Assembly: GCF_026341275.1 (NCBI RefSeq)
Contig: NZ_JAIFZO010000002.1
Coordinates: 62,001-126,000, forward strand
Reading direction: 5' to 3'
Length of the DNA stretch: 64,000 nucleotides
Source: Streptomyces ortus
GTDB lineage: Bacteria; Actinomycetota; Actinomycetes; Streptomycetales; Streptomycetaceae
Part shown: piece after piece, positions 2,473 through 48,952 of the stretch
How the letters are laid out: each line of letters begins with the position of its first letter
How positions within the stretch are numbered: position 1 is the first letter of the stretch
Notes under the pieces: model-generated
Database searches by the model: none
Seen by the model: only the letters and a program-made list of their open reading frames with translations
What the model was told of the DNA's origin: nothing
Made by a program: the position numbers and the translations under genes

Positions 2473-3207
2473 CCGCGCGTGCGCGGGAGGACCAGCCCGT
2501 CGGGGCTAACACCGGCGACGGGCTGCACCTGGTCGACGGCGAGGATGGCCAGCCGACCACGGCGCAGCGCATGACCCGCCGCGAGTACGCAAACCGCGTC
2601 GCTCCGCTCGGGGCTGACACCTGAGATCAGGCGGTGTCAAAACTTCGGACAGCAATTCCGGTTGTCTGGTCCGTTTCCACCGGCCTCCCTTGTACCTGTG
2701 CTTGCGAGCTGTCCTGGGAGGTCGCCGTGAGGCTTGTTCGCCTTTTTCAGCCCCATGGGCCGCTCAACGACCAGCCGTCGGATGCGCTGCCGTCCGTGGT
2801 TGCTGGTGTGCAGAGGCCCGTCGCCACTGATTGCATGCAGGTGGCAACTTTCGGTCAATGTTGCACGGCCAGAGCGGGGTGCTCGGCCGGGCCGTCACGG
2901 ATGCGCCACGGGGTGCACATCATTCCTTCACTCTCTGTGCACGGTCGTTTCTCGGTCACGTCATGATCGGCATCTTGTATGGCGATCTTGTTGCATGCCT
3001 GAATGGTCCGTCGCGCGGCAGAGCAACCCGTTTAGCCGATGCGCCAGTTGTGTGCGGCAGGGGAGCGCCGTTGTCACGGGGGAGGGGGCTTCGTCATGCC
3101 GCAAACAGGGTCTGTTCGGCACGTCATGGCAGCGAGCAGCGATCCGTTGCCCGGTTCTTCGTCGAGGGCACTCCTTGCCGTCTCCGTTTCCGACGAAGGA
3201 TGTTCTC
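2473..3207. other. Non-coding stretch with possible gene remnants
   Basis: No complete gene is convincing. Plus-strand codons at 2473-2624 read like the tail of a protein (THDGEDG-like, ending PLGADT) but lack a start. Minus-strand codons at 2637-2800 read like a decayed C-terminus ending CCPKF, possibly from a transposase. The last 200 bases must hold the promoter of the large toxin gene. A GAAGGA ribosome site sits at 3194-3199. Confidence 0.4.
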
Positions 3208-6200
3208 GTGCGTCTTAGACGCTCCTCCAGATCGCCTGACGCACCGTCCGGCAGACCGTTCAGACAGCCCCGTGCCCAGGGCGGCCGTTCCCGACTCGGT
3301 GCGCGTACGCGAAGGGTGCGTGCCGCGTCCGGGCCTCTCATTCCGCTGGTCGCCATCGGCGCGGTGCTGGCCGGGCTGCTCGGCCCCCAGCCTCCGGCCG
3401 GCAACACGGTGCCCGGCAGCCTGGTCGGCGACAGCTACGACGGCTTCGACGCCGGTGCCGCCGAGCAGCTGCGTCAGGACCAGTGCCTCATGGGCGATTC
3501 CCTGCGGCTGGGCGGGCCCGCGATGGGCGCCCTCGCGCAGGGCGGCTTGAATCAGACGCCTGAGCAGTTGCGCGTCACGGCTGCCCGCGAGTACTGGAAC
3601 CACACTCCGCTGGCCGCGGCATTCCAGCAGGACAGGGACGCGACCGGCCAGAACAGCGCGGCCTTGAACGCACGACTGACGGCATGGAAGGCGCCGCTGG
3701 CCGGTCTGTCGACGCCCGCGGGCTTCACCGACACCGGGTTCGCCTGGCCTCCCGGTGTGCCCAGCGGCAGCGGGGCGGACTTCTTCGACCAGGTCGGCTA
3801 CTCCAAGTGGCTCGGGGAGCAGTACTGGAAGGACGAGAGTCTCTTCTACCAGGACCCCACCCCGCAGGCCGACGCGGCGACGGTCAAGGCGGTCAAGGAC
3901 CTGGGCACCCCGCTGTACTCGGACGTGGATCCGAACCTGCCGAGCGATCAGTGGCAGCAGGCGTACGCCGAGAGTCAGGCGTTCGAGGAGCTGGTCGACG
4001 GCTACGACCCGATGAGTGCCGACGACGCCCGGCTCTTCCTGGCCGCGGGCGGCTTCATGCGCAGCGCCCCCATGCCGGGCAGCCTTGAATTCCGGCTCGC
4101 CGTGGAGGACTTGAAGACTCGGTTCGCGGCCTGCAGTTGGCGCAACCCCGTCGACCCGAGCAAGGTGCTGGGCCAGGTCGTCGCCACTGCCTCCGCCGAG
4201 TGGCAGCAGGAGATCACCGCGCAGGCCACCGAGCGCGGGAAGATCTTCTCCGACAACCGTCAGGCGACCACGGCGCTGGCCACCGGCGCGAAGGCGCTGG
4301 GCGAGTTGCTCGGTCAGTCCTGGATCGCCGACCGCCTCACCCGCTGGCAGGACTACTGGTCGGCCGGCGGCCCCGGCTGGGTCGGTGACAGCCCGATGGT
4401 CGTCCACATCCACGCCGCGTCCGACAAGTGCCTGGAAGTGGGCGGCAACTCGAAGGCCGACGGCGCGGTCGTCCAGATGTACACGTGCAACAGCGGCGCC
4501 AACCAGAAGTGGCAGATCGCCAACAACGCCCTGGTGAACGTCAGCTCCGGCAAGTGCCTGGACGTGAAGAGCTCCGGCACCGCTGATGGCACCGTCATCC
4601 AGCAGTGGACGTGCAACCAGAGCGGCGCCCAGAAGTGGGAGTACACCACCCGCGGCACCACCCGGCTGTACAACACCGGCACCGGCAAATGCCTGGACAT
4701 GCACACCTACGCCAACAGCCAGGACGCCTGGACCTGGACCTGCAACGGCAGTGACCCGCAGAAGTTCGACATCGTGCCCTCCGGGCACAACGGCACCAGC
4801 GACGTCTTCTACCCCACCCAGGCCCAGTTCACCCAGGCCGCCAAGGGCATCACCGACGCCCGGGCCGCCGCCAAGACCCAGCTGGAGGTGCTGAGCAAGC
4901 AGGCGCAGAGCGCAGGCATCGCCGCCGTCGAGACCGACGAGCACCTCAAGGCCGCCTACGCCATCGCCGACCGCGACGGCGCTCCCCGCGGCCGGGCCCT
5001 GCTGGTGGGACAGCAAAAAGCCCAGGTGACCAAGGCGTCGGCCGCGGCGCTGACCGCCATGATGCAGGCCGGCCAGACCGCCGAGGCCGCCACCCGCGCC
5101 TCGGCCGGCGACAGCGCCACCATCACCGCCCGGGCGGTGACCCAGGCCGCCGCCACCCAGGCCGCGTTCCGCAACGCCGCCGCCAAGGCCTCCAGGGAAC
5201 AGGCCAAGGCCTCGGCCGACGCCGCCGCGGTGCAGGCCAAGAACGCCAAGGACTCCCGCGACGCCGCTAAGACCAAACTCGCCGAGACAAAGGCTGCTGA
5301 AGCGGACGCCAAGGCCGCCGCGGCCACCGCGCACGCCAAACGGCTCGCCGCGGAAACCGAGGAAGCCACCGCGAAGGCCGAGAAGGCGACCGCCGCCCAG
5401 AAGCAGGCGGAAGCCGCCCAGCACAAGACCAACGCCCAGGCACAGGCGTCCAAGGCACAGACGGCCAAGGACAAGGCCGACACCGCCGACACCACCGCCA
5501 CCGAAAAACGGCAGGGAGCCGAAACCGCCCGCGACAAGGCCAGAGACCTGCGGGACGACGCCTGGGAAGCGGAGAGCAAGGCCAACGCCAGCCGGGCCAA
5601 GGCCGATGCAAAGGAGGCCTACGCGCAGGCCAGCGAATCCGAGGACAACGCACACGAAGCCCGGCAGGCGGCCAATGAAGCCGATGCCGCCGCCGACACC
5701 GCGGAAACCGCCGCAGCCAGTGCACGCTCGGAAGCTGACCTGGCCACCCAGGCCGCGGCCGACGCCGACGCGGCGGCGACACGGGCCGAAGCCGCCGCCA
5801 AGCGCGCCCGCTCCGACTCCGACGACGCCCGGGCCGCGAAACTGAAGGCCGACGCAGCCGTGCGCACCGCGACCAGCGCGGCCGCGGACGCCATCAAGGC
5901 CTCCCGGAGTGCAGCCACCGCCGCCCGCACCGCCGACGAACTCGCCGACGACGCCGAAAAGGCCGCCGCCGACGCCAAGACACAGGCCGACGCATCCAAG
6001 AAGGACGCCGCCACCGCACTGGCCGGCGCGACCAAAGCCGCCGGATACGCCTACACCACCGCCCAGGCCGCAGTGGACGCCGGCAACTCCGCAGCCCAGG
6101 TCGCCGCACCGGCCAACGACGCCATCCAGCTCGGCTCCCCGTACATCACCAGCGACTCGGCCGCCGGACTCGCCGTCCTGACCGGCCAGTCCTCCAAGAC

Positions 6201-8181
6201 GATCGCCGAACAGCAACAAGCCGTCGCCGACGCCCACGCGAAGAACGCGTCGGAGGCCGCCGCCCAGGCACAGAGCACGGCCAACGCGGCATCCGGCGAC
6301 TCCAAAGCGGCCTACACGCTGGCCGCAGAGGCCGCCGCCTTCTCCGCGGCAGCCCGCGCCTCAGCTAAGGAAGCCCTCGGATACGCCGCAGAAGCCGCCA
6401 CGTATGCGGCGCAGGCCACCCAGTCCCTCGCGCGCACCATCGAATACGACCAACAGGCCACCGAAGACGCCGCAGCAGCAGACCGGGCGGCGGGCCGGGC
6501 CGAGGGCTACGCCGACGACGCCCGCGACTCCGCGGACGAAGCCGCCCTCGATGCCGAAGCCGCCCGCAAAGCCGCAACCGAGGCAGAGCAGGCGGCCACG
6601 GACGCCCGCAAAGCCGCCGACCATGCCGCCATCGAAGCAGCGGCAGCCGAAGAGGCAGCCAAGGACGCCCAGAAGTACGCCGACTCAGCCCAGCAGGCGG
6701 CCGAGGAGGCCGAACGCAAGAAGAACGCCCAGCAGATCGAGACCGGAACCGTCGTCGACGAGGTCGGCACCTCCATCGGCAACATGTTCTACGTCACCGA
6801 CCACACCGACCCGGTCGGCGATCCGAAGGTCGTGGAGAAGTCTGCCGGCTGCGACGGCTTCATCGACAAACTGTTCTACAAGGGCGACTGCACGATCACC
6901 ACAGAGATCCGGTTCAAAGCCACTCTGGACCTGTACCTGTGCGAGGCCGAAGGCCTGTCCTCCGACGACCTCAACGAGACACGCTACGTGTGCCCCGCCA
7001 GCGCCACGGTGTACCTGGGAACACACCCGACCAAGGAGCTGTCCACCAAGGTCACACACACCATCACGATTGCCGAGTACCAAAGGGGCGTCGACCCGGT
7101 CGACATCCTGTTCGGCAGCTGGATCAAGTGCGTCCAGAAGATCGCCCCCGGCGGCGCGAACGGAAGCCTGAGCGGATGCGGCTGGGCAGCCGTGGACGTC
7201 GCGAGCCTGTTCGCAGGAAAGATTCTCAGGCCCATCGCCGACGCGGTCAAGGCGGTGGATGCCTCCGCCAGGACCGGCATTGCGTTTACCGACGCAATCA
7301 GGGGGCTGCGCGCACTCAGCTTGTCGGACGAGGCCGTCGCGGGAATCACCAGGGTGGCGTTCCAGAAACTGGAGAGCCTCTGCCTGAAGGACAGCTTCCC
7401 CGCTGGCACACGAGTTCTTCTGTCTGATGGCCGGTCCAAACCGATCGACGAAATCAACGTCGGCGACAAGGTACTTGCTACCGACCCGGATGCCAGCAGC
7501 ACTCGCCCGGCATCTGTGACGGCGACGTTTTCCCACCCGGCTGACCAACTCCGTCAGATCAGCGTCGCCGGTGGGGGGAAGATCCTCACCACACCCGGGC
7601 ACCGGATCTATGTTCCGGGCCGCGGCTGGGTAAAGGCATCCGACCTGCGGGCAGGCGATTCACTCCGCTCTGCGACCGGTACGCTGAACGCCGTCACGGG
7701 AATTCTTCCAGTGATCGCACCGCAACGGGTATGGGACCTGAGTGTTGCAGACTTGCACAGTTTTTACGTGCTCGCAGGCAGCACTCCGGTGCTCGTTCAC
7801 AACGTCAACTGCGCCTCTTACATTGACGTCTACCCGAGCGGTCTCGGAATCATCGCCGACATCAATAAGGACGGACTCGTCTCGTTTGTCATAACCGCAG
7901 GTAAAGACACCCCCAAGGGTAGCGAGATGTTCAACGCCGCGCTCGCCCACTTCGGCGACGACGTCAAGGGCGTCAAGGCGTACTGGCAAAACGGCGGAGC
8001 GCTCAGCGACAACCTCAACTCCTTCAATGCGGCTATTAGAGGTGGCGCCTCTCTGGAAGAGGCGTCACTGGCCACATTCACTGGGAAAATGTCTTCGAGG
8101 GCAGGATTCACGCATGTAGAGATAATCGAGCTCAGAGGCCTACCTGGCAGCTACACAGAGGTAGGAGCTGTTTTCCGATGA
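3208..8181 (+). CDS. Secreted polymorphic toxin: ricin-B lectin, coiled-coil stalk, Hint, C-terminal toxin domain
   Basis: 1657 residues from the GTG at 3208, chosen because GAAGGA lies 8 bases upstream and the Arg-rich start followed by PLIPLVAIGAVLAGLL (about 42-58) makes a signal peptide or anchor. Residues 60-390 are an unassigned globular part. Residues 397-523 are a ricin-type lectin with three GKCLxx repeats and QKW/QKF motifs. Residues 540-1178 are an extreme Ala/Lys/Glu/Asp coiled coil. Residues 1180-1390 are a Cys-containing pretoxin part. Residues 1392-1534 are a Hint autoprotease domain (SFPAGT start, VGDKVLATDP, TTPGHRIYVPG, closing LVHN). The last 120 residues are a separate domain I cannot assign, placed where polymorphic toxins carry the toxic tip. 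The inferred role is an exported antibacterial toxin that binds glycans and is released by Hint cleavage. A candidate immunity gene follows. Confidence 0.85.
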   Translation: MRLRRSSRSPDAPSGRPFRQPRAQGGRSRLGARTRRVRAASGPLIPLVAIGAVLAGLLGPQPPAGNTVPGSLVGDSYDGFDAGAAEQLRQDQCLMGDSLRLGGPAMGALAQGGLNQTPEQLRVTAAREYWNHTPLAAAFQQDRDATGQNSAALNARLTAWKAPLAGLSTPAGFTDTGFAWPPGVPSGSGADFFDQVGYSKWLGEQYWKDESLFYQDPTPQADAATVKAVKDLGTPLYSDVDPNLPSDQWQQAYAESQAFEELVDGYDPMSADDARLFLAAGGFMRSAPMPGSLEFRLAVEDLKTRFAACSWRNPVDPSKVLGQVVATASAEWQQEITAQATERGKIFSDNRQATTALATGAKALGELLGQSWIADRLTRWQDYWSAGGPGWVGDSPMVVHIHAASDKCLEVGGNSKADGAVVQMYTCNSGANQKWQIANNALVNVSSGKCLDVKSSGTADGTVIQQWTCNQSGAQKWEYTTRGTTRLYNTGTGKCLDMHTYANSQDAWTWTCNGSDPQKFDIVPSGHNGTSDVFYPTQAQFTQAAKGITDARAAAKTQLEVLSKQAQSAGIAAVETDEHLKAAYAIADRDGAPRGRALLVGQQKAQVTKASAAALTAMMQAGQTAEAATRASAGDSATITARAVTQAAATQAAFRNAAAKASREQAKASADAAAVQAKNAKDSRDAAKTKLAETKAAEADAKAAAATAHAKRLAAETEEATAKAEKATAAQKQAEAAQHKTNAQAQASKAQTAKDKADTADTTATEKRQGAETARDKARDLRDDAWEAESKANASRAKADAKEAYAQASESEDNAHEARQAANEADAAADTAETAAASARSEADLATQAAADADAAATRAEAAAKRARSDSDDARAAKLKADAAVRTATSAAADAIKASRSAATAARTADELADDAEKAAADAKTQADASKKDAATALAGATKAAGYAYTTAQAAVDAGNSAAQVAAPANDAIQLGSPYITSDSAAGLAVLTGQSSKTIAEQQQAVADAHAKNASEAAAQAQSTANAASGDSKAAYTLAAEAAAFSAAARASAKEALGYAAEAATYAAQATQSLARTIEYDQQATEDAAAADRAAGRAEGYADDARDSADEAALDAEAARKAATEAEQAATDARKAADHAAIEAAAAEEAAKDAQKYADSAQQAAEEAERKKNAQQIETGTVVDEVGTSIGNMFYVTDHTDPVGDPKVVEKSAGCDGFIDKLFYKGDCTITTEIRFKATLDLYLCEAEGLSSDDLNETRYVCPASATVYLGTHPTKELSTKVTHTITIAEYQRGVDPVDILFGSWIKCVQKIAPGGANGSLSGCGWAAVDVASLFAGKILRPIADAVKAVDASARTGIAFTDAIRGLRALSLSDEAVAGITRVAFQKLESLCLKDSFPAGTRVLLSDGRSKPIDEINVGDKVLATDPDASSTRPASVTATFSHPADQLRQISVAGGGKILTTPGHRIYVPGRGWVKASDLRAGDSLRSATGTLNAVTGILPVIAPQRVWDLSVADLHSFYVLAGSTPVLVHNVNCASYIDVYPSGLGIIADINKDGLVSFVITAGKDTPKGSEMFNAALAHFGDDVKGVKAYWQNGGALSDNLNSFNAAIRGGASLEEASLATFTGKMSSRAGFTHVEIIELRGLPGSYTEVGAVFR

Positions 8182-18701: not shown

Positions 18702-18768
18702 TGTCAAGGAACCTTGACAGGAGCGTGTGCCTGGTGGGAGGGTCGGGGCTTGTCAAGGATCCTTGACG
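18702..18768. promoter_or_regulatory. Two TGTCAAGG palindromes upstream of the 18795 gene
   Basis: TGTCAAGG-AA-CCTTGACA at 18702-18719 is perfect; GTCAAGGATCCTTGAC at 18752-18767 is perfect. Their centres are 49 bp apart. They are probable operators for an HTH dimer, likely the product of 18795-19499. Confidence 0.75.
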
Positions 18769-18794
18769 AAAACCTGCGAGAAGGGGAGTCACTC

Positions 18795-19499
18795 ATGGGC
18801 TGGGTCACCGACGACGGACTGCACGAGGGTCACCTCGTCGCGGTGCTCGCCGACGGCCGCGACGCCACCGCCGCCGACAATCCCCACGGCGACAACACCG
18901 CGTGGTGGTGCTTCGACGGCACCGACGGCCGCCCGCGCGCCACCGGCGTGCGGGCCGGATGCGACTGCTACGCCGAGAGCGTCGACGAGGTGGTGCGGAC
19001 CTGGCGCGGCAGCACGGTGCACCCGGTCTACTTCGGCGACGACGACCGGACCGACGGCACCGACGGCGAGGAGATGAGCGGTCCGTACGCGGAGTGGTGG
19101 ACCGTCCACGTCGCCCCGGCCACGTCGACCGCGGTGCCCGGCGAGATCGCGGATCTGCTCGACACCGTCCGAGTCCGGCTCGCCGGACTCGGCGAACAGC
19201 GGCCGCTGGCCGCGCTCACCGCGGTCGCCCGGCTGGAGGGCATCGCCGCGGCGGCGGCCGTCCGGGCGGCCGGTGCCGTCCAGCATGGCGGCGGCTCGTG
19301 GGCCGACATCGGCGGTGCGCTCGGCGTGAGCAGGCAGGCCGCGCACCAGCGCCTGGCCCGCCGCGTCGCGGCCCTGGACGAGCAGGTCCCCGGCACCCGG
19401 ACCGGTACCACGGTCGCCGACCCGGGCGAGGCCACGTTCGGCGCCGGCGAGACGGCCGTGGACACCTACCGGCTCACCCGCCGGGGGGAAGACCGGTGA
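18795..19499 (+). CDS. HTH protein with an N-terminal acidic domain, 234 aa
   Basis: The ATG at 18795 follows AAGGGGAG. Residues 1-115 are acidic and aromatic (TAWWCFDGTDG, EWWTVHVAP) and look like a small beta domain, function unknown. Residues 150-205 hold GGSWADIGGALGVSRQAAHQR, an HTH very similar to that in 17561-18349. It probably regulates itself through the two palindromes just upstream, and may share the CCTGACG array with its divergent neighbour. Confidence 0.75.
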   Translation: MGWVTDDGLHEGHLVAVLADGRDATAADNPHGDNTAWWCFDGTDGRPRATGVRAGCDCYAESVDEVVRTWRGSTVHPVYFGDDDRTDGTDGEEMSGPYAEWWTVHVAPATSTAVPGEIADLLDTVRVRLAGLGEQRPLAALTAVARLEGIAAAAAVRAAGAVQHGGGSWADIGGALGVSRQAAHQRLARRVAALDEQVPGTRTGTTVADPGEATFGAGETAVDTYRLTRRGEDR

Positions 19500-19603
19500 A
19501 GCACTTCGCCGTGGCACGGGCCGGACAGCCGACGGCCGCCGCATCCGATGTGAGGATGCGGCGGCGCGACGGACGGACGGCGGGGACCGGCGGGGTGCGG
19601 GGC

Positions 19604-19852
19604 TCAGATCAGCCCGAGGTCCCGGAACACCCCGAAGAGGCCGAAGAAGGTTACCGCGGCGCCGCCCGCGCCGAGGAACAGCGCCGGGTAGAAGCCGAGA
19701 CCGAGACCGACCGGCGCGGGCCTCTGGGAGCCGTAGAAGGCGACCGCACCGACCAGCAGGGACGCCAGGACGTCGGTCACGAGCCACGCGACACTGGCCG
19801 AGGCGGTGGAGGTGGGTGGCGCCGGGGCGGCGAAGAACAGGAGCGTGAACAC
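19604..19852 (-). CDS. Small membrane protein, 82 aa
   Basis: Three hydrophobic segments: an N-terminal MFTLLFFAAPAPP, then VAWLVTDVLASLLVGAVAFYG and FYPALFLGAGGAAVTFFGLFG. The ribosome site is weak. It lies between two HTH genes on the opposite strand. The function is unknown. Confidence 0.55.
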   Translation of the reverse strand: MFTLLFFAAPAPPTSTASASVAWLVTDVLASLLVGAVAFYGSQRPAPVGLGLGFYPALFLGAGGAAVTFFGLFGVFRDLGLI

Positions 19853-19959
19853 GTGAACCCCCGAGGGTCATACAGAGCCGCGAACGACTTTTCCAGTAGC
19901 CTGGACAATATCGCAGACAATGCGAGACAACGAGTTTCGCAGCTAGAGAGGGGTGTGTG

Positions 19960-20991
19960 ATGGCCGGACGCCCCATGAAACCCATCCCCGAGGACGCCGA
20001 TCCGGTGCTCCGCGCCTTCGTCACCGACCTGCGCGCGTTCGTCGACACCGCCGTCGCGCCGGGCGAGGCCGTGTCCAGCCTGTCGAGCGTCTCTCCCCCC
20101 AGGATCGGGCGGTCCACGCTGATGCACGCGCTCGGCGGCCAGCGGCTGCCCACCATGCAGACCGTGCAGGCCATCGTCGACATCGTCGTCAGGGTCCGCC
20201 AACTGTCGCATGAGGAGCGGCGCGAGCTGTCCGGGAAATGGACGCTCAAGTGGAAGCGCGCCATGACGCTGCTCGGCCCGGCCGGTTCCGGCGAGTCCGT
20301 GGAGAAGCCCCCGTTCGACTCCGGCACCTCCGCCACCGTTGCACGGTCCGCAATGGGCGTCGACCCGGTCTATTACGAGCGGACCCACGAGCCCAGGACC
20401 GAGAACGACCCGGTTGCCGACGCCGTCGCGTCCCTGGACCAGGCTCTGCTCAACCTGAAGCAGGCCACCCGCGACGTCACACGCGCACGGGCCGTACTGG
20501 CGAGGGCGACCGCGGTCGCGCGCTCCACGACAAAGACACCGCAGGACTCCGCAGCACAGTACGACGACGTCCTAGCCGAGCTGCTGCAGGAGGGCGGGGA
20601 TCTGGAGGGTGCCGAAGCCCCCGGCCAGCAGGGGGCCGTCCACGACGCCGCTCGGGCTCTCCCGATCTTGCTGCGGAAGGACGTTGGAGACCCCGAAGCT
20701 CTCGCCCAGCAGCTCGCGTTGTTGCCCGTGGCACAACAAGAGGAAGTGCTGGCATACCTGGTGCTGGAACACGCCGCCGCAGCCCTGGATCGCACCAGCA
20801 TCCAAGGTCTGCGGGAGTCGGGCACGTTCGAGGACGCCGGTTTCGATTCGCTGACCGCGATTGACCTGCGGAACAGGCTCAACCACGACTTCGGCCTCGA
20901 ACTGCCCGCGACGCTGATTTTTGATCATCCGACCCCGTCCGCGGTTGCCGCATACGTGCGCGAGCTGCTCGCGGTACGGGCGGCTCATTGA
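19960..20991 (+). CDS. HTH-like protein fused to an acyl carrier protein domain
   Basis: 343 residues from the ATG at 19960, with AGAGAGGGG upstream. Residues 45-75 look like a Streptomyces plasmid-type HTH region (RIGRSTLMHALGGQRLPTMQ, TVQAIVDIVV). Residues 150-200 are a helical linker. The last 95 residues are a type I PKS-like acyl carrier domain: GFDSLTAIDLRNRL, with Ser297 as the phosphopantetheine site, followed by LPATLIFDHPTPSAVAAYV. There is no PKS, NRPS, acyltransferase or phosphopantetheinyl transferase gene anywhere in the window. It could tie DNA binding to acyl status, or be a recruited fold. An unusual architecture; the C-terminal identification is firm, the role is not. Confidence 0.8.
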   Translation: MAGRPMKPIPEDADPVLRAFVTDLRAFVDTAVAPGEAVSSLSSVSPPRIGRSTLMHALGGQRLPTMQTVQAIVDIVVRVRQLSHEERRELSGKWTLKWKRAMTLLGPAGSGESVEKPPFDSGTSATVARSAMGVDPVYYERTHEPRTENDPVADAVASLDQALLNLKQATRDVTRARAVLARATAVARSTTKTPQDSAAQYDDVLAELLQEGGDLEGAEAPGQQGAVHDAARALPILLRKDVGDPEALAQQLALLPVAQQEEVLAYLVLEHAAAALDRTSIQGLRESGTFEDAGFDSLTAIDLRNRLNHDFGLELPATLIFDHPTPSAVAAYVRELLAVRAAH

Positions 20992-21056
20992 CACACGACA
21001 CATCGACTTCGGCCACCTCACGCGCACGGTTTCCGACCCGAGAGGATCTCTCCCCC

Positions 21057-22310
21057 ATGCCGTTGTCCGTACCGCTGCTCCTCGTACCGGGAGAGCCGGA
21101 CCGCCACTACACCGTCCACGTCCACCGCCTCCGCTGGGATGCCGACACCGGACCCATGGCGCTGCTCACCGACGACCACCTTGCGCCGCTGAAGGCCAAC
21201 GCCCGTGAGGGCCTGCGGATGGTCTCCGAGTGCATCGCCGCCGAACTGGCCGACGCCGACGTCGCCACCTTCCAGTACCCCGACGGATCAGCCGAGGCCG
21301 TGGCCCGGATGCTGTGCACCGAGGACGTATGCGCCGCCGTCGACGAGCGCTACCGCCGTGACGCCGAGGAGGACGTCGAGGCGGAGGCCGCCCGTGGCGT
21401 GGGCCGCCTCCCAGCTCCAGGACCAGTCTGTGGAACTCCTCAAGCTCCGCAGCGAGTTGGAGAAGACCACTCCGGGCAAGTCGGCCGCGGACATGCTCGC
21501 CGCCGTACTGGCCGTCCAGCAGGAGCGCACCGGCGGCCAGGCCGACCGTGTCGTGCTGCGGCTCGACGAGGCCGCCGACCTGTTCCGGGAGTCCGGGCTG
21601 TTCCCCGGCCGGACCCCGGAGGGCGTGCGGACGGAGATCGAACGCCTGATCCGTACCGGCCGCAAGCCGTACCCGACCGAGACCGCCGGCGAGGCCTTCG
21701 CGGGCGAGACGAGCCGGGGCACCGTCCGGCTCCAGGCCCACCGCCTCTCGGACCTGGACGGTGCCGACAACCTCCCGACGTGGATGGGCCCGGCGCGCGG
21801 GTCCGTGCCGATGGTCACGACCGACGAGGCGCTGGAGTACCTGCAGCGGGAGAACGCCACCGAGCTGACGCCCGAGCATTTGGTGCGCCAGACGCTGGAG
21901 CTGGCCCGCACCGTCGCCGTGGGCGACGCTCCGAAGGCGGACGTGATGCAGCTCGCAGAGCTGGTCCGCGAGGTGGCACGCCGCTGCAACGCGGAACGAG
22001 CCCGCCGTGCCCCGCCGACTGCGAGCAGGACGAGGACCCCGGGCTCGCCCTGCTGCACCGCATCGGCTACCGGCCCCTTGCCGTACGTGTCGGCGAGGTC
22101 CGCGCCGCACGGGCGGGTGCCCGACGGGACTGGTCGTGGCGCACGCTGCCCGACATCCTGCCGGACGACGAGGACGACACCGTGGTCCTGGTCTACCGCG
22201 AGCCCACCCCGGGCCTCGCGCTGCTGGAGCACATCCGCACCGGCGAGGAGAAGGCCGTGCAGAGCGACACCACCCTCTTGCTGCGCTGGCTCACCGCGGA
22301 CGGGAAGTGA
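21057..22310 (+). pseudogene. Hypothetical gene with two compensating frameshifts
   Basis: From the ATG at 21057 the first 110 codons are natural protein (PLLLVPGEPDRHYTVHVHRL...). Near 21390 natural codons continue in the +1 frame (WAASQLQDQSVELLKLRSELE, ADMLAAVLAVQQERTGG, up to about 22005), and then return to the original frame (DEDPGLALLHRIGYRPLAVR) to a stop at 22310. Neither frame hits a stop between. Either one gene has suffered two cancelling frameshifts, or the assembly has two indels, or three coupled genes lack stops; the first two are likelier. The ancestral protein of about 415 residues has helical and Arg-rich parts and no recognised domain. It lies between the ACP-fusion gene and the integrase. 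Confidence 0.6.
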
Positions 22311-22316
22311 CGGACG

Positions 22317-22382
22317 ATGAGTAGGTCCGACGCCACCGCCCGGGGCGGCAAGCTCGCCGACGAGGTGGAGGCCGCCAAGTGA
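22317..22382 (+). CDS. 21-aa ORF coupled to the integrase
   Basis: The ATG at 22317 and stop at 22380-22382 enclose 21 codons (MSRSDATARGGKLADEVEAAK). The stop overlaps the GTG of the integrase (GTGA), so its translation should deliver ribosomes to the integrase start. It is probably a leader or the tail of a lost gene. Confidence 0.45.
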   Translation: MSRSDATARGGKLADEVEAAK

Positions 22383-23515
22383 CGACCGCCCAGGAGTGCG
22401 GAAGCGAGCTGGAGCCGGTGGAGGTGGTCGACGCCGAGCTGGTCGAGGACGATCACGTCCCCGGCGTCGGCGAGGTGGCCGTGCACGACCCGGTGGACGC
22501 CGTCCTCAAGGCCCTGGACGCGGACGCCGAGGAGCACCTGAACGACATCCGGCCGAAGAAGACGAAGGACGGCTACGCGCGGGACTGGCAGATCTGGGGG
22601 GAGTTCCACGACTGGCTCGCCGCGCGGACCGGCGCCCTGCTGCCGCTCAGCAAGGTCACCGTGGGCACCTTCGTGTCGTTCGTGACGTACCTGGACCAGG
22701 TAATCCAGGCGCCACCGAACACGATCGAGCGCCGGATCACCGGCGTCACCTCGGAGGCCCGCAGACGCGGTCACACCGTGCCCAAGGAGGCCACCGAGGC
22801 GGCCCGGCGCGCGTTGAAGCCGCTGCGCCTGGACAAGCGGCGCCAGCAGCGAGGCCGCGGCAAAGCGTCCGCCATCACCCCGGCCGACCTGCGCAAGATG
22901 GCCAACGCGCCGCGCGAGCGCGGCCCGCGGCCGGACGCCCGGCGGCAGCACACCATCGTGGTCCCGGAGCTGACCCGGCTGCGGGACAAGGCGCTCCACT
23001 CCCTCAAGTTCGCGGTCGCGGGCCGCAACGAGGAGATGTCCGTGCTGGACGACCCGGACATCGAGGCCGTGGACGAGGGCCTGATGGTGCACGTGCCCTC
23101 GGTGAAAGGACGCCCGCCCCGCCCCGTGCCCGTCACCTACGGCGAGGACATCGACACCTGCCCGGTGCGCTGCTGGCGTGCGTACCTGCAAGCCAAGCTC
23201 ACGGCCGGCGCCACACCGGGCGGCCCGGCGTTCCTGCCCGTCGACCAGTGGGGCAACCAAGGCACCGTGCGCCTGTCGCCGGACGCGGTCGGCCGCGCGC
23301 TCGCCCGCTGCGCGCAGTACGCGGGCCTGACCGGACGCCGAATCACCGGCCACTCCGCACGGCGCGGCCTGGTCACCACCGGCCGCAAGAAGGGCAAGCG
23401 CGTCGAGAAGCTGCGCCATCAGGGCGGCTGGTCGGCCAACTCGCCCGTGTTCTGGGAGTACGTGGACGAAGGCGAGGCGTTCGAGGACGCCGCGACCGAG
23501 GGGATCGGCCTGTGA
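22379..23515 (+). CDS. Tyrosine recombinase (integrase)
   Basis: 378 residues from GTG 22379. Residues 50-155 form the SAM-like core-binding domain (YARDWQIWGEFHDWLAARTG). Residues 170-370 are the catalytic domain: Arg in FAVAGRNEEMSVL, HSARRGLVTTG as the HxxR box, RHQGGW, then Tyr in FWEYVDEG near the C-terminus. All catalytic elements appear present, so it should be active in site-specific integration, excision or dimer resolution. It could serve the flanking island. No attachment site was identified; there is no tRNA gene nearby. Confidence 0.85.
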   Translation: MTTAQECGSELEPVEVVDAELVEDDHVPGVGEVAVHDPVDAVLKALDADAEEHLNDIRPKKTKDGYARDWQIWGEFHDWLAARTGALLPLSKVTVGTFVSFVTYLDQVIQAPPNTIERRITGVTSEARRRGHTVPKEATEAARRALKPLRLDKRRQQRGRGKASAITPADLRKMANAPRERGPRPDARRQHTIVVPELTRLRDKALHSLKFAVAGRNEEMSVLDDPDIEAVDEGLMVHVPSVKGRPPRPVPVTYGEDIDTCPVRCWRAYLQAKLTAGATPGGPAFLPVDQWGNQGTVRLSPDAVGRALARCAQYAGLTGRRITGHSARRGLVTTGRKKGKRVEKLRHQGGWSANSPVFWEYVDEGEAFEDAATEGIGL

Positions 23516-34354: not shown

Positions 34355-35746
34355 TCAGGCCGTGAACTCGATACGGAAGGGGTCGTTGTTCACCAGGCGC
34401 TGGTACTTGCGGAGTGAGCCGAGGACACCGCCCGCCGAGCTGTTGGCCCGCTGGCTGATGTGCAGCCGCAGGCAGGTTTCGGTGCCTGTGGTCGGACGGT
34501 CCGGCCAGGTTGCCGGGGCGGACCAGACGTTGTTCACGACCTGCGGGGTCAGTTCGGCGCACAGGCTTCCGTCCTGGCCGCCCTCCTTGGTGCTGGCCAT
34601 CGGGAACTCGTCGCAGCTGTCCGCGCCGCTCGTGTTCGGGTGGATGTTGGTGAAGGGCGTGCAGGTCGCGGCGCGGTTGGTGTTCGCCTGGTCCTGGTCG
34701 ACGGCGTGCAGGATGTTGGTGCCCCGCCGCTGCATGATCTCTTCGTAGATGGGGACGACGATCCCGTACTTCTCGTGGGAGCGGGAGTAGCTCAGTACCG
34801 GAAGGTCGTCGGTGGGGATGACGCAGCCGCGTAGCCGGGGCTGTTCCTTGTCGCAGCGGATCTCGCCGTCTGCGGGGCTGGACCAGGAGGCGTTCTCGTC
34901 GATCGGGGTGGCGCCGGGCATCGTCACGTACATCGCGTAGCTGGTGCGGAAGGAGGAGCGGGTCGTGTCGGTGGCGAAGGAGTCGCCGCTGTACTTGGTG
35001 GAACCCGAGACCTGCTGTTGCGGCACCAGGGTGGTGGCGAACCAGGGCTGCTGGGTGACGGTCTTGCAGCCGGCTCCGCAGCTGACCTTCATGCGCACCG
35101 TGAGGCTCTTCACGTCACCGGAGACGTTGATCAGTTTGGCGGTGATCGTTTCTTTGAGGTCGAGGGTCTTGTAGGAGGTGGCGAGGGTGGAGTTCACCTC
35201 GATGTCGCCGGTGCCGATGGGGACGCTTTGCGCGTTGTAGAGCGTGTACTTGACGATGACGCCACGCAGGCACATGCCGCCGGTGCGGCTCCAGGTCCAC
35301 TGGCCCTCGTTGGCGACTGCGCAGGAGGGCTCGGGCGGCTCCGGATCATCGGCGTCCGGCTCGAACTCCGAGGTGGTGCCGTCACCGGACGGGTCGTCGG
35401 CGGCAGCGGCGGTGATGCCGGCGGCGGGCGGGGAGGGTGCGGCAGGCTGACGGCTCGTGGCGCCGCTCTTCTCAGCGGATACGGGCTGTACACGTGTGCA
35501 CGCTTTGACCGCGCCGCCCGCGTCCGTGCGGTTCTCGGTGGGGATCGTGGTACAGGTTGTGTCTGCGGTAAAGGCGGCGCTCTGTGTGAGTGTTTCGGCG
35601 GAGGTTGTCGCCGCGGTGGTGGCCGCCGGTGTGGCGATGGTGGTGGCGGCCGGTGTGGCCTGGCTGATGCCGGCTCCGGTGGTGCCGGTCGCGGTGACGG
35701 CGAGGAGGGCTGCCATCAGCAGCGCCGGTCTGGATGGTTTTCTCAC
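34355..35746 (-). CDS. Secreted NucA/NucB-type DNase downstream of umbC
   Basis: 463 residues. Residues 1-30 are a Sec signal (RPALLMAALLAVTATG). Residues 30-140 are Ala/Thr/Pro-rich and low complexity. Residues 140-270 look beta-rich with several Cys (CAVANEGQWTWSRTGGMC; KVSCGAGCK). The C-terminal 170 residues hold the NucA/NucB motif CDEFPMASTKEGGQDGS near residue 385, then RLVNDPFRIEF at the end. NucA/NucB enzymes are extracellular, metal-dependent DNases. The gene starts 57 bases after umbC on the same strand, so it belongs with the umbrella-toxin operon; a candidate immunity gene follows. It is likely a secreted effector or a scavenging nuclease. Confidence 0.8.
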   Translation of the reverse strand: MRKPSRPALLMAALLAVTATGTTGAGISQATPAATTIATPAATTAATTSAETLTQSAAFTADTTCTTIPTENRTDAGGAVKACTRVQPVSAEKSGATSRQPAAPSPPAAGITAAAADDPSGDGTTSEFEPDADDPEPPEPSCAVANEGQWTWSRTGGMCLRGVIVKYTLYNAQSVPIGTGDIEVNSTLATSYKTLDLKETITAKLINVSGDVKSLTVRMKVSCGAGCKTVTQQPWFATTLVPQQQVSGSTKYSGDSFATDTTRSSFRTSYAMYVTMPGATPIDENASWSSPADGEIRCDKEQPRLRGCVIPTDDLPVLSYSRSHEKYGIVVPIYEEIMQRRGTNILHAVDQDQANTNRAATCTPFTNIHPNTSGADSCDEFPMASTKEGGQDGSLCAELTPQVVNNVWSAPATWPDRPTTGTETCLRLHISQRANSSAGGVLGSLRKYQRLVNNDPFRIEFTA

Positions 35747-35803
35747 AGTGTGTCTCCTGCTTCGAGCTTCACGTTGTTCATGGGGATGGGGGTGGGGGGC
35801 GTA

Positions 35804-38800
35804 TCAGGCGACCAGGTCGACGAGGCTCTTAGTGATGCTGGAGACCTTGTCCTCGGCGACGTCCGTGATCTTGTCTACGACGGGCTTGATGAGCTTGCCG
35901 CCAGCGGCTTTGTCGGCTGCGCCCAGCCACTTGGACTGGCCGAAGGTGACCAGGCTCAGGCCGGTGCCGGCGGCGGAGGTGAAGAACTCGCCGCTGGTGA
36001 AGCCGTGTTCGATGCCGGTGAAGAGGGAGCCGAGGGCGCCCGCGCCGGTGGCGAGGGTGGCGAAGAAGCCGGCTGCGGCGAGGGCCGGCGGGAAGACGAA
36101 GGCGGCGAGGGTGCAGCCGGCTGCGAGGAAAGCGGCGCCGATGCTGACCGCGTTGGCCGCGTCGGCGTAGAACTGGGCGTCGTTCCACCATTCGTCGGAG
36201 TTGGCGGGGTCCTTGGTGCCGTTGGGGTTGACCTGGTCGTTCTTGCCGTTGCCGGCCGGGTCGAGTTTGGCGTCACGGTCGGCCTTGGCCTTGGCTGCGG
36301 CCTCCCTGGCTTTGGCGATCACCTCGGCGGCGTGCTTCTCGGCGGTGATCCGCTGGGCCTCGGAGTAGGCGGCGGCGGCCGCTGTGGCGTCCGCCTGCGC
36401 GGCAAGTTTGGCGGCACGGGCTGCGGCAGCCGACGTCTGGGCCGCGGCGGAGGACTTGAGAGCGGCGCGCGCCGAGTCCATCGCCTTGTTGGCGGAGTAG
36501 TTCGCTGAGCGGGCCGCGCCGCGGGCGGTCGCGGCGGCCGACTTCGCGGTGTTGGCGGAGGCCTGGGCATCGGCGGCCGACTTGTCGGCGGCGTCCGCGT
36601 TCCGGCGCGCCTCGTCGGCGAAGTTTTCGGCCTTGGCGGCGGAGGCGATCGCCTTGTCCGCCCATTCCTGGGCCTTGGCGGCGTCGTTACGGGCGTCGTA
36701 GGAGGCCTTGGTCGCCAGCGCGGCGTCCTCCTGCGCCTTCTCGGCGATCTTCGCTGCTGCCGCGATGGCGCCGCGGATCGCGGCGACGTGGGTGGCGGTG
36801 TCGTGGTCGAACTGGGCCGTACGGAACTGGACCAGGGTGATGAAGTTGCGGAGCATCCACGCCGGGCCCTCGAGGGCGACCTCCGCGTACGCCTTGGTGA
36901 AGGCGCCGCCGGTGGTGAGGAGCTCGTTGGCGCGGACCCGGTCGTCCTCGTAGACCGCCAGCGGGTAGTCGTGGTCGAAGAAGTAGTTGAGCGATTCGGT
37001 GGTGTTGATGTCGAGCGCCTTGTTGCCGGCGGCCTTGACGGCCTTGCCCGCGCCCTCATCGGCGATGATCTTGTTGATTGCCACCCGCAGTTCCTCGTCC
37101 GAGGCTCTCTTCATCCCGCTGGTGAGGAAGTCGCCGACGGCCGCGATGTCAGAGCTCTCCAGGGCGAGCGCGGCGGCCTCGGCGACCTTCGGTGCGGCGA
37201 TGGTCGCCACGTGGAGTGCGGTCTCACGGTCGTCCTGGCTCTGGGCGACGCTCCGGTCGATGTCGATCCAGGCGTAGACGTCGTCGTCGGAGCCGGCGAG
37301 CGCGTGCTGGGCGGCCTGCCGGGTCCAGGCGCCCCTGGCATCAAGCAGGGCGATAGCGGCCTTGCGCCCCAGGGGCGCAGCGAGACCCAGATCACCGGAG
37401 TACAGGGCCTGCTCGGCCTGGGCGATCCGGTCCTTGGTCTCCTGCGTGGTGCGGTCCGCAAGGAGCCGCTTGTCGCGGACGTCGGCCAGTTCGGTCGTCT
37501 CGATGGAGGCGAGTAGCTGTGCCTCCTCGATCGCCTGCTGCTTGTCCTGCTCCAGGGTCTGGGCCTCGGCGGCGCGCGCGTTCTTCTCCACCTCGATGGC
37601 GTCGGACACGGCCTGGGTGGCAACGTTCGCGGCTTTCACGGCCTGATCGGAGTGTGCGGTCGACTTGTTGGCGTAGTCGATGGCCTGGCCTGCGTACTTC
37701 ACGGCCTCCTCGGCGGCGGCTGCCGCCTTGTCGGCGTGGTCGGCTGCGGAGTTGGCGGCGTCGCGCGCGGTGCGTGCCGCCGCCGCGGCGGCGGACGCCA
37801 GGGACTGGGCGGCGGAGGCTGCGTTGGTAGCGCGGTTGGCGGCGCTGGTGGCGATGGCGGCCTGGCGCTTCGCCTCGTCGGCCTCGGCCTTGGCGGCACC
37901 CGCCGAGGCGGCGGCCTGTGCGGCGGCGGTGGCGGCGGCGGCCGAGTTGCGTGCGGCGGAGGCGGCCGCCTTGCCGGCGGTCGCCGCCTGGTCGCCGGCG
38001 ATGGCCGCCTTGTCGGCGGCCTTGGCAGCGGTACGGGCCTTGTCGGCGGCGTTCTTCGCGGCGACCGCAGCGTCCTTGGCGATCTGTGTCTTGTTCGCGT
38101 CCTTGGAGGCGGCTATCGCTGCGCTGTAGGCGTAGGCTGCGGCGCTGCCTGCCTTCGAGGCGGCCTGTGCGGCGCCGGCGGCTGCCCAGGAGGCGCGGCG
38201 GGATGCCTTCACCGCGGCGTTGGAGGCGTTGATGGCGTTGCGTGCGGCGTCTGCCGCGCCCTTTGCCGCGCTCGACGCTTTGCGGGCCGCGGCCGCTGAC
38301 TTCTGCACATCGCTCTGGGCGGCGGATGCCTCGGCGGCGGCTTTCTGGGCGGCCTCCTTGGCTTTTCCGGCGGCGGTTTCGGCGCGTGCGGAGGCCTCCA
38401 CGGCCAGGTTGGTCTCGCGTTCGGCGCGCTTGCCCTCGCGCTCGACGACGGCCACCAGTTCCTCGATGGTCGCCGACTCCTGGTCGCGGGCACGCGCGAT
38501 GTGCTGACCGGTCTCGATGAACCACTCCACATCGGTCGCGGTGCCGCTGAGCGCACGGTTCGCGTACTTCCGCACCTCCGCGCCGGCGGTCAGCAGCATG
38601 GCGCTGATCTGGACCTGGGTGTCCTCCAGGCGTGCGTCGTACTGCTTGTCGGTGAGGAAGGCGGTGAGTGTCGGCGCGGTGCCGGTGTCGAGGGCGGTGT
38701 TGGCGTCGCGCACCACCGCCTTGTCGCCGGTGGCCGAGACGACGGTGGTGGCGACCTGGAGGTCTTCGATGATGGCGGGTTTGAAGCCGTCTTTCAGGAA

Positions 38801-39184
38801 CGCGGCGATCGCGGTGTCGCCGTTCTCGAGGGCGGCGACGGCCTCCCGGCGCAGGCCCTTGCCCGCACGGTCCAAGCTGCGAACGATCGCGACCCGGTTG
38901 TCTTCCACGGTCTGCTTGGGCAGCGTCTCAACGAGGAACGTCTGGATGTCGGCATCTGTCCCGTAGAGGGCCTGGGCGGCGGCGGCTTTGACGCCCTTGC
39001 CTCCGGTCAGCCACGCCCTGACAACCTTGGCGCGCTCGGTGTCCGGCAGCGGCACCGGTTCGGGCACGGCGCTTTCGGTGGCAGCGGCGGTGGCCGGTAT
39101 CAGGGCCGAGGGTGTGGCCGCTACGGCGGCAGCGGCCGCGAGAGAGCCGAGTACGCGGCGTCTGCTCCAGAACGTTGTCTGCAT
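35804..39184 (-). CDS. umbC: UmbC: ALF-repeat ring and coiled-coil stalk protein of an umbrella toxin
   Basis: 1126 residues from the ATG at 39184 (AAGGAA upstream). It starts with a twin-arginine signal (SRRRVLGSLAAAAAV). Residues 50-235 are four ALF-type repeats (AWLTGGKGVKAAAAQALYG and relatives). Residues 235-590 are a very long Ala-rich coiled coil. Residues 608-800 hold four more ALF repeats. Residues 800-965 are a second coiled coil. Residues 978-1126 are a linker and a hydrophobic Gly/Ala-rich domain (SIGAAFLAAGCTLAAFVFPP) ending VDLVA. This two-fold ALF-and-coil layout is the known UmbC plan: eight ALF repeats build a ring and the coils a stalk with the toxin tip. The tip has no nuclease motif and looks membrane-active or pretoxin-like. 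It is divergent from umbB-umbA. Confidence 0.9.
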   Translation of the reverse strand: MQTTFWSRRRVLGSLAAAAAVAATPSALIPATAAATESAVPEPVPLPDTERAKVVRAWLTGGKGVKAAAAQALYGTDADIQTFLVETLPKQTVEDNRVAIVRSLDRAGKGLRREAVAALENGDTAIAAFLKDGFKPAIIEDLQVATTVVSATGDKAVVRDANTALDTGTAPTLTAFLTDKQYDARLEDTQVQISAMLLTAGAEVRKYANRALSGTATDVEWFIETGQHIARARDQESATIEELVAVVEREGKRAERETNLAVEASARAETAAGKAKEAAQKAAAEASAAQSDVQKSAAAARKASSAAKGAADAARNAINASNAAVKASRRASWAAAGAAQAASKAGSAAAYAYSAAIAASKDANKTQIAKDAAVAAKNAADKARTAAKAADKAAIAGDQAATAGKAAASAARNSAAAATAAAQAAASAGAAKAEADEAKRQAAIATSAANRATNAASAAQSLASAAAAAARTARDAANSAADHADKAAAAAEEAVKYAGQAIDYANKSTAHSDQAVKAANVATQAVSDAIEVEKNARAAEAQTLEQDKQQAIEEAQLLASIETTELADVRDKRLLADRTTQETKDRIAQAEQALYSGDLGLAAPLGRKAAIALLDARGAWTRQAAQHALAGSDDDVYAWIDIDRSVAQSQDDRETALHVATIAAPKVAEAAALALESSDIAAVGDFLTSGMKRASDEELRVAINKIIADEGAGKAVKAAGNKALDINTTESLNYFFDHDYPLAVYEDDRVRANELLTTGGAFTKAYAEVALEGPAWMLRNFITLVQFRTAQFDHDTATHVAAIRGAIAAAAKIAEKAQEDAALATKASYDARNDAAKAQEWADKAIASAAKAENFADEARRNADAADKSAADAQASANTAKSAAATARGAARSANYSANKAMDSARAALKSSAAAQTSAAAARAAKLAAQADATAAAAAYSEAQRITAEKHAAEVIAKAREAAAKAKADRDAKLDPAGNGKNDQVNPNGTKDPANSDEWWNDAQFYADAANAVSIGAAFLAAGCTLAAFVFPPALAAAGFFATLATGAGALGSLFTGIEHGFTSGEFFTSAAGTGLSLVTFGQSKWLGAADKAAGGKLIKPVVDKITDVAEDKVSSITKSLVDLVA

Positions 39185-39620
39185 GGGAAATTCCTTATCG
39201 AGGCAGCGGAGTGAGGCCCGCCGCAATCGCGCCGACAGGGCAAGCCACGGAAATACGTGCGGGGGCATCACTGAATTGCAGTGACCCTATCAACTCGCAG
39301 CCTTAAAACCAGCGTTGTGGGCCGGGCAGGGCAACTCGGCCACAATGCATGCCTTTACATGACCCTCACAATCATCCATACAACCTTTTCGCGAGATGGC
39401 GAAGGTCACACCAAGCATGTATTCAATGCCCCGTTTGGGCAGGTAAAAGCGGTAGACCAAGGGTCTACTTCGTGTTGCCATGACGGAACCCACGGTGATG
39501 ACGCGTCGTCAAGCCTGTCCCCAGGGTGGCCGGGCGGGGCGCTTCAGGACGACGATAAGAGCCTTTGAACACTCAATCCTGTCCTGTATGCCTGTGATTT
39601 TATTCGAGCTGAGGAATGCA
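39185..39620. promoter_or_regulatory. Divergent promoter region of the Umb locus with a dyad
   Basis: 436 bases separate umbC (leftward) from umbB (rightward), lower in GC than the genes. GTAGACC-AAG-GGTCTAC at 39452-39468 is a perfect dyad and a plausible operator. No gene is supported here; short frames inside are unlikely. Confidence 0.65.
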
Positions 39621-47839: not shown

Positions 47840-48952
47840 ATGCCTGCTGAGCTGCACTTTTCTAGCAACGACGCACGGCAGCCCGCCCTAGAGTCTTCGG
47901 TCGCTGTCTCCCTGGCGACCGCCAGCTGGTGTGCGCGCCGCGGCTGGCCCGTGCACCCCCTCGCTGCAGGCCGCAAGACGCCGGCCGCAAACTGCAGCCA
48001 GTGCCGCGCAACTCCACACTCGCCCGGCGAGTGCCCGTGCCTGCCCGCAGGACGCTGGTGCCATGGCTTCCACGCCGCCACGTTGGACCAGCGCCGCATC
48101 AGCAACTGGTGGGGAGCCCATCCGGAATTCGGCGTCGGCATCGCCTGCGGACCCGCAGGCCTGATCGTCATCGACATCGACGCCCATGCCACCCAGCCAC
48201 CGACCCGGGACCGGATCCTGCCCGGCATTCCCATCGGCGACCACATCGACCTCACCGGCCTCGCCAACGGCTTCCACACCGTCGGCATCCTCGCCGCCCT
48301 TAGAAGCCAGCGAAATCCCGCAGATGACGACACGACCCTGCGCGTACGCACCCCTTCGGGCGGCCTGCACGTCTGGTACCGGGCCACGGACAACCGCCGC
48401 TGGCGCTGCTCCTCCGGCTCCAGCCAGGGCGCAGCCCTGGCCTGGCAAGTCGATGTCCGTGCCCACGGCGGTTACATCATCGCCCCTGGCACCATCACCA
48501 GGCACGGCACGTACACCCCCCTCGACGATGTCCGCGAACCTGCCTCGTTGCCTGTCTGGCTGGCACAGGAACTCGAACGCACCGGCCACCTGCCGGCTCC
48601 CAGCGTTCCCGCGCCCCGTCCGGTCCCGCCCCGCGCTCAGCAGGCCGTTCTGGCCGCGGGCGGCGGCCGCGACCGAACCGAGCGCATGCTTGCAACAATC
48701 CTCGCCCCCGTCGAAGCCTGCGGTCAGGTCACCGAAGGCGCCGGATTCTCCGACACCCTCAACCGTGCCGCCTACACCCTCGGAGGCTTGGTGGCCGCAG
48801 GCCGCCTCACCGAGGAAGAAGCCGAACGGGCACTCACCCAAGCTGCGGCCGCTGCCCGTCCCGGCCAGGAACGCCGCGCCGCCCAGATCATCCGCAGCGG
48901 CCTGGCCGCCGGCCGCCAGCACCCCCTCCATACGCGAAGGGGCCCCCGATGA
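47840..48952 (+). CDS. Bifunctional primase-polymerase (PrimPol) replication protein
   Basis: 370 residues from the ATG at 47840. Residues 25-215 form the archaeo-eukaryotic primase-type domain: WCARRGWPVHPLAAGRKTPA, GIACGPAGLIVIDIDAHA (acidic pair of the active site), RTPSGGLHVWYR, GGYIIAPGT. The C-terminal part is helical, including a motif RAAYTLGGLVAAGRLTEEEA of plasmid primases. It should synthesise primers at the origin. It overlaps the helicase gene by 4 bases, and the iteron array lies just upstream. Confidence 0.9.
   Translation: MPAELHFSSNDARQPALESSVAVSLATASWCARRGWPVHPLAAGRKTPAANCSQCRATPHSPGECPCLPAGRWCHGFHAATLDQRRISNWWGAHPEFGVGIACGPAGLIVIDIDAHATQPPTRDRILPGIPIGDHIDLTGLANGFHTVGILAALRSQRNPADDDTTLRVRTPSGGLHVWYRATDNRRWRCSSGSSQGAALAWQVDVRAHGGYIIAPGTITRHGTYTPLDDVREPASLPVWLAQELERTGHLPAPSVPAPRPVPPRAQQAVLAAGGGRDRTERMLATILAPVEACGQVTEGAGFSDTLNRAAYTLGGLVAAGRLTEEEAERALTQAAAAARPGQERRAAQIIRSGLAAGRQHPLHTRRGPR

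Follow-up and report, generated by a model that had tools for sequence, protein, structure and literature searches.

A 64,000-nucleotide stretch of the Streptomyces ortus genome, hereafter called the window, contains a gene in which an acyl carrier protein (ACP) related to those of type I polyketide synthases (PKSs) is fused to a DNA-binding-type N-terminus. The open reading frame (19960-20991, + strand) starts with ATG, although an alternative GTG start is possible at 19957, and runs through 343 codons with zero internal stops and a normal codon-position composition. Its product carries, in order, an XRE-type helix-turn-helix (HTH) domain (aa 15-105), a coiled coil (aa 151-189) and a type I PKS carrier domain. 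The union of a carrier domain with a DNA-binding-type N-terminus is confirmed as a real observation. The gene and its surroundings comprise the following features.

19604..19852, - strand: divergent gene for a small membrane protein of 82 aa (similar proteins in the same place in L008, L010, L011 and L111; more distantly similar in L084 and L110)
19853..19956, no strand: intergenic region with a weak candidate operator, TTTTCCAGTAGCCTGGACAA, at 19889-19908
19960..20991, + strand: HTH-coil-ACP fusion gene (open frame, 343 aa; Pfam and NCBIfam matches)
19960..20283, + strand: XRE-type HTH domain, aa 1-108 (alignments A1 and A2; structure model; VIA-align)
20410..20526, + strand: coiled coil, aa 151-189, common to the HTH family (alignment; long helix over 151-189 in the model; DNA homology to L021 at 20413-20508, 79%)
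20632..20988, + strand: ketoreductase (KR) tail, KR-ACP linker and complete ACP, aa 225-343 (phmmer, Pfam, Foldseek)
20848..20850, + strand: codon of Ser297, the serine of GFDSL to which phosphopantetheine attaches (sequence; Pfam alignment range)
20509..21034, + strand: segment without homology to either plasmid backbone, which holds the ACP (blastn edges at 20508 with L021 and 21035 with L081; drop in GC3)
21057..22310, + strand: broken gene from the second type of plasmid operon (MPLSVPLLLVPG...) (aligned at the DNA level with the intact L081, L082 and L083)
22317..22382, + strand: deletion scar, the start of one operon gene fused to the end of another (blastn coordinates, sequence)
22379..23515, + strand: intact tyrosine recombinase (integrase), aligned without stops with the recombinases of L008-L010, L081, L084 and L110

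Elsewhere the window encodes a protein of 1815 aa that combines ricin-B lectin repeats with a pretoxin HINT domain at its C-terminus and looks secreted and of the polymorphic-toxin type (2734-8181, +). It has adjoining genes for a protein in which eight ALF repeats were matched and for a DNase protein of the NucA/NucB type (34355-39271, -). It also holds adjacent Prim-Pol primase and D5-type helicase genes (47840-50493, +), which are replication genes of an integrated plasmid or phage-like element, and an ApeA-like HEPN protein (ApeA_NTD1 and HEPN_Apea; 57733-59274, +), a known type of anti-phage defence gene.

The identity of the C-terminal domain was established with several comparisons. The Pfam PP-binding model (PF00550) matched aa 272-333 with an E-value of 2.4e-13 and 50.6 bits against a curated cut-off of 20.8, and the last ~94 positions of the NCBIfam type I PKS model NF045894 matched aa 244-337 (domain-level E 4.4e-25). 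In phmmer searches, solved modular PKS ACPs matched aa 248-335 with E-values down to 4e-17, while PKS module chains matched over aa 225-336. The phmmer and model match ranges together indicate that the PKS-derived part consists of a ketoreductase tail, the KR-ACP linker and a complete ACP with Ser297. The AlphaFold2 prediction contains the ACP helices, and the best PKS ACP matches of this structure in Foldseek gave TM values to target of 0.74-0.84. The attachment serine sits in a GxDSL context (GFDSL) within the predicted ACP helical fold. A preliminary description of the locus had quoted an intact phosphopantetheine site, GFDSLTAIDLRNRL, and the LIFDHPTP motif of type I PKS carrier domains; both occur exactly as quoted. 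The domain thus shares its GFDSL serine, LIFDHPTP motif, predicted fold and preceding linker and KR tail with the ACPs of modular PKSs such as mycolactone MLSA/MLSB (6h0j, 6h0q, 5hv8) and DEBS (2ju1). In contrast to these, it stands outside any PKS and is attached to an HTH protein; the PKS content of the 343 residues is limited to the KR tail and the ACP, with KS, AT and any other PKS domain absent. The description of the domain as lying away from any PKS also held, in that a Pfam scan covering twenty of the window's other proteins returned zero PKS proteins. The PKS genes of S. ortus lie ~7-8 Mb from the fusion gene.

Evaluation of conserved positions was used to judge the condition of the domain. 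Of 49 positions conserved to at least 70% among PKS ACPs, the fusion ACP keeps 41 (PKS ACP mean 43.2), and changes at conserved positions are mostly conservative. Of the 18 positions conserved to at least 95% it retains 16, a lower count than in nearly all PKS ACPs. Its surface and DSL helix are preserved. By these sequence measures the ACP is intact or slightly relaxed. The conservation count describes a single sequence and does not tell apart selection that acted before the fusion and selection that acted afterwards; most of the divergence may predate the fusion, and the count is therefore no sign of continuing selection. Modification of the domain by host Sfp-type transferases is plausible because three phosphopantetheinyl transferases are encoded in the S. 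ortus genome, and the ACP may accordingly receive a phosphopantetheine arm.

The N-terminal part has no Pfam HTH match of its own, but its relatives do. HTH_31 matches two of them just below the curated cut-off (6.9e-6 in L015 and 1.2e-4 in L020), and HTH_3 also matches near its cut-off among the relatives. When the N-terminal 108 residues were modelled alone, a five-helix HTH was predicted with a mean pLDDT of 86.5. VIA-align placed this model closest to the restriction-modification controller C.EcoT38IS (Z 7.7 over 83 residues, 3.3 A), and the other top rows were restriction-modification controller proteins and XRE-type repressors. Because a Z of 7.7 is middling for a small helical domain, the HTH assignment rests also on the HTH_31 and HTH_3 matches of the relatives. 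Foldseek alone ranked bromodomains first for this domain; VIA-align put XRE proteins on top. All structure predictions used genome-derived alignment rows only, and an alignment combining family and PKS rows (A3) was discarded since it misaligned the coil with the ACP. In its HTH fold and presumed autoregulation through palindromic operators, the window protein resembles restriction-modification controllers and XRE repressors (C.EcoT38IS, 2ef8; C.Esp1396I, 3clc). These C-proteins consist of one HTH domain and belong to restriction systems, whereas the window protein adds a coil and a tail, and the partner gene of its family is a recombinase.

Tblastn and profile searches revealed relatives of the N-terminal part, annotated as hypothetical proteins or HTH regulators, and ten distinct ones were read (L008, L009, L010, L011, L013, L014, L015, L020, L084 and L110). 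Homologous HTH and coil regions are present in the window protein and all ten (alignments A1 and A2). A tblastn match to L008 (E 2e-20) is independent of the profile; the family profile scores the window protein at 220 bits with the window sequence itself included in the profile. The relatives make up a small Streptomyces family without a name, mostly plasmid-borne, of which the HTH and coil part of the window protein is a member. This agrees with the earlier suggestion that the N-terminus resembles an HTH of plasmid regulators. Members of the family diverge in the linker and the C-terminal tail. The tail of L010 is winged-helix-like, with a best Pfam E of 3.4e-6 that falls short of the curated cut-off, those of L008 and L011 give much weaker winged-helix matches, and the remaining relatives have a short coil as tail or none. 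Among the relatives found, an ACP tail occurs in the window member only.

The family also has a recurrent gene neighborhood. In seven of the ten relatives (L008, L009, L010, L014, L015, L084 and L110) a tyrosine recombinase gene abuts or overlaps the HTH stop codon, and most relatives inspected have a divergent small membrane gene upstream. The window retains this divergent gene (19604-19852, similar to L008, L010 and L011) and a recombinase of the same family, which gives a weak match to Pfam Phage_integrase (E 0.015) and a match to a PHROG integrase (E 8e-4). In contrast to the seven relatives, its recombinase does not abut the HTH gene but lies 1.4 kb downstream, behind a broken gene. The window HTH further differs from every relative aligned by a two-residue insertion before the recognition helix. 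On a wider scale, 18714-23515 corresponds to a variable cargo locus common to many Streptomyces plasmids. It is flanked by a conserved gene at 18714 and the recombinase at 22379, and what stands between these flanks is an HTH gene in one type and an operon of several genes (MPLSV..., MSSSD...) without assigned function in the other; the window is a hybrid of both types.

The divergent intergenic regions of the relatives contain GTCTC/GAGAC half-sites, arrays of which span 1357-1473 in L014, 1357-1473 in L013, 4866-4982 in L020, 3868-3982 in L110 and 4097-4215 in L084. Perfect palindromes with 8-bp arms are found in L110, L014, L013 and L020 (p 0.007-0.025 each against shuffles), and in L013 the two arms have changed in concert (TTTTCTC/GAGAAAA). 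These arrays are likely operators of an undescribed regulator family. Recombinase adjacency, the divergent gene and the palindromes together suggest that the HTH proteins function as autoregulatory DNA-binding partners of the integrase. In the window, 7 of 8 pairs of the palindrome match (p about 0.145), and this weak operator match, the HTH insertion and the lost recombinase overlap make a regulator role of the window copy uncertain.

DNA homology to plasmid loci was traced by blastn on both sides of the ACP. Homology to HTH-recombinase loci stops at 20508 (L021), whereas plasmid operons of a second type (L081, L082 and L083) are homologous from 21035 onwards. The bridging segment of ~525 bp encodes residues 184-343, the entire ACP included, and joins a backbone of the HTH-int type to one of the MPLSV-operon type. 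Composition changes across the protein as well. GC3 drops from 0.91 over residues 1-190 to 0.76 over residues 191-343 (Fisher p 1.6e-4, with the split picked after a scan), and the value for the ACP part (0.75-0.76) is below that of all 38 PKS ACP segments compared (minimum 0.78), a further difference from type I modular PKS ACPs.

A close donor of the ACP was not found in the S. ortus genome or in the family, class and relatives samples. The PKS ACPs of S. ortus itself share 40-44% protein identity with the fusion ACP, the longest DNA match to its own PKS genes is 50 bp at 82%, and the nearest PKS ACPs elsewhere reach up to 55% identity in protein and 75-78% in DNA over about 100-150 bp. These low identities indicate that the donor modular PKS is neither in the home genome nor among the genomes sampled. 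The same values bear on whether an assembly or sequencing artefact joined two unrelated pieces. The genome offers no near-identical copy that could cause a chimeric join, and the segment lies inside an 8.6 Mb contig. Two frameshifts in the neighboring gene could be base-calling errors, in keeping with such an artefact, which we nonetheless regard as extremely improbable.

Sequence downstream of the fusion gene shows signs of decay. Alignment with three intact plasmid relatives places two frameshifts in the gene at 21057-22310, +1 near 21395 and -1 near 21996, and the operon DNA missing at the adjoining scar amounts to about 1.8 kb (against L082) to 2.5 kb (against L081). The fusion gene might be a dead relic without any functional part, one of several broken genes in a decaying integrated plasmid, and a recent join or a high GC content would be all that keeps its frame open. 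The doubly frameshifted next gene and the partly deleted operon speak for this, as do the HTH insertion, the weak operator and the lost coupling to the recombinase. However, all 343 codons are free of stops and frameshifts and have normal codon-position composition, the integrase is intact, and the HTH and ACP folds are predicted with confidence. We consider a dead relic unlikely, and it is the main rival to an explanation in which the ACP is a passenger.

That explanation, to which we assign a probability of about 0.62, is that the locus is a one-off chimeric gene in a plasmid-derived region, encoding an HTH and coil autoregulator with a passenger ACP. It is based on the HTH and coil shared with the family, the abutting recombinases, the palindromes, the variable tails, the KR tail, the homology edges, the GC3 shift, the neighboring decay, the lack of recurrence in the searches and the three phosphopantetheinyl transferases of the genome. 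Against it stand the intact frame and the degree of ACP conservation (41/49), which a pure accident need not keep up if it is old. The first ~190 residues represent an HTH and coiled-coil protein that is a normal companion of a plasmid tyrosine recombinase. Family anatomy suggests that this protein probably dimerises through its coil, that the dimer probably binds the intergenic region before its own operon, and that it probably represses its own gene, the recombinase and the divergent membrane gene. The homology edges and the composition show that the ordinary C-terminal tail was replaced with the KR-tail/ACP end of some modular PKS and that the HTH gene was joined to the other plasmid backbone, presumably by illegitimate recombination. 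The ACP is most likely a passenger without a regulatory role. Relative to the Streptomyces plasmid HTH and coil family, the window protein matches in HTH, coil, divergent membrane gene and downstream recombinase family, and differs in having an ACP where relatives have a winged helix, a coil or nothing, in the 1.4 kb and broken gene before the recombinase and in the two-residue HTH insertion.

The preliminary description had asked whether the architecture recurs in other Streptomyces islands. To look for recurrence, the full protein, its N-terminal part or alignment, and the ACP were used as queries. No second HTH-ACP fusion was found in plasmids, phages or IMG/VR viral contigs, in a scan of genome contigs from 84,980 species, or in 392 Streptomyces and 394 Streptomycetaceae genomes. 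The genome samples hold one genome per species, the plasmid and contig collections may omit records of the S. ortus genome or very near ones, and the pattern scans reach only sequences in which the motifs are retained. One search of the family sample scored five candidates per genome, so that HTH matches could hide behind PKS matches; a family sample of the same size was also searched with the HTH profile. The fusion locus was absent from 60 of 60 relatives, whose matches to it were mostly PKS ACPs. A literature search of incomplete coverage returned nothing relevant on fusions of carrier and HTH domains. The fusion had initially been regarded as an accident should it prove unique to this genome and derived from a degraded PKS fragment. 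It is unique in everything searched and does stem from a PKS fragment, but the ACP is not degraded.

An intact carrier domain raises the question of whether it acts on the protein that bears it. Phosphopantetheinylation of Ser297, or an acyl chain attached there, might alter DNA binding by the HTH dimer, and the integrase operon would then respond to the CoA, polyketide or fatty-acid state of the cell. The intact domain with its serine and the transferases of the genome are compatible with such gating, and there is precedent for regulators that respond to acyl-ACP in trans (FabT, PMC9083066). However, the relatives lack an ACP, no cognate loading or acyl-transfer enzyme was found nearby among the window proteins scanned, and the domain lies at a recombination junction beside decaying genes. 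The regulation originally envisaged consequently finds no support, and we judge it very improbable. FabT of Enterococcus and Streptococcus, which uses a separate acyl-ACP in trans as ligand, may be viewed as the nearest functional parallel, given that both cases unite a DNA-binding regulator with a carrier protein (PMC9083066). FabT is a different regulator, whereas the carrier of the fusion is covalently part of the protein and any effect on DNA binding there is hypothetical.

Alternatively, the ACP could serve as an interaction tail that docks a host phosphopantetheinyl transferase or a PKS/FAS enzyme without gating DNA binding, and thereby tethers or sequesters either the HTH protein or the enzyme. 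The preserved ACP surface and DSL helix would suit this role, and the family's tails vary and could be exchanged to suit different partners. Neither a partner nor recurrence was found, and the objections to a gated regulator apply here also; an interaction tail appears quite improbable.

We know of no previously described transcription regulator with a built-in carrier domain, and a functional ACP in this protein would be the first. If the carrier did gate DNA binding, a mobile-element regulator would link plasmid integration and excision to host polyketide or fatty-acid metabolism. On the likelier reading, that of a chimeric gene with a passenger ACP, the locus illustrates how a domain can escape from a PKS assembly line and become the tail of an unrelated plasmid protein. 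The locus also exposes an unnamed HTH and coiled-coil family that is paired with Streptomyces plasmid recombinases and offers candidate operators that are directly testable.
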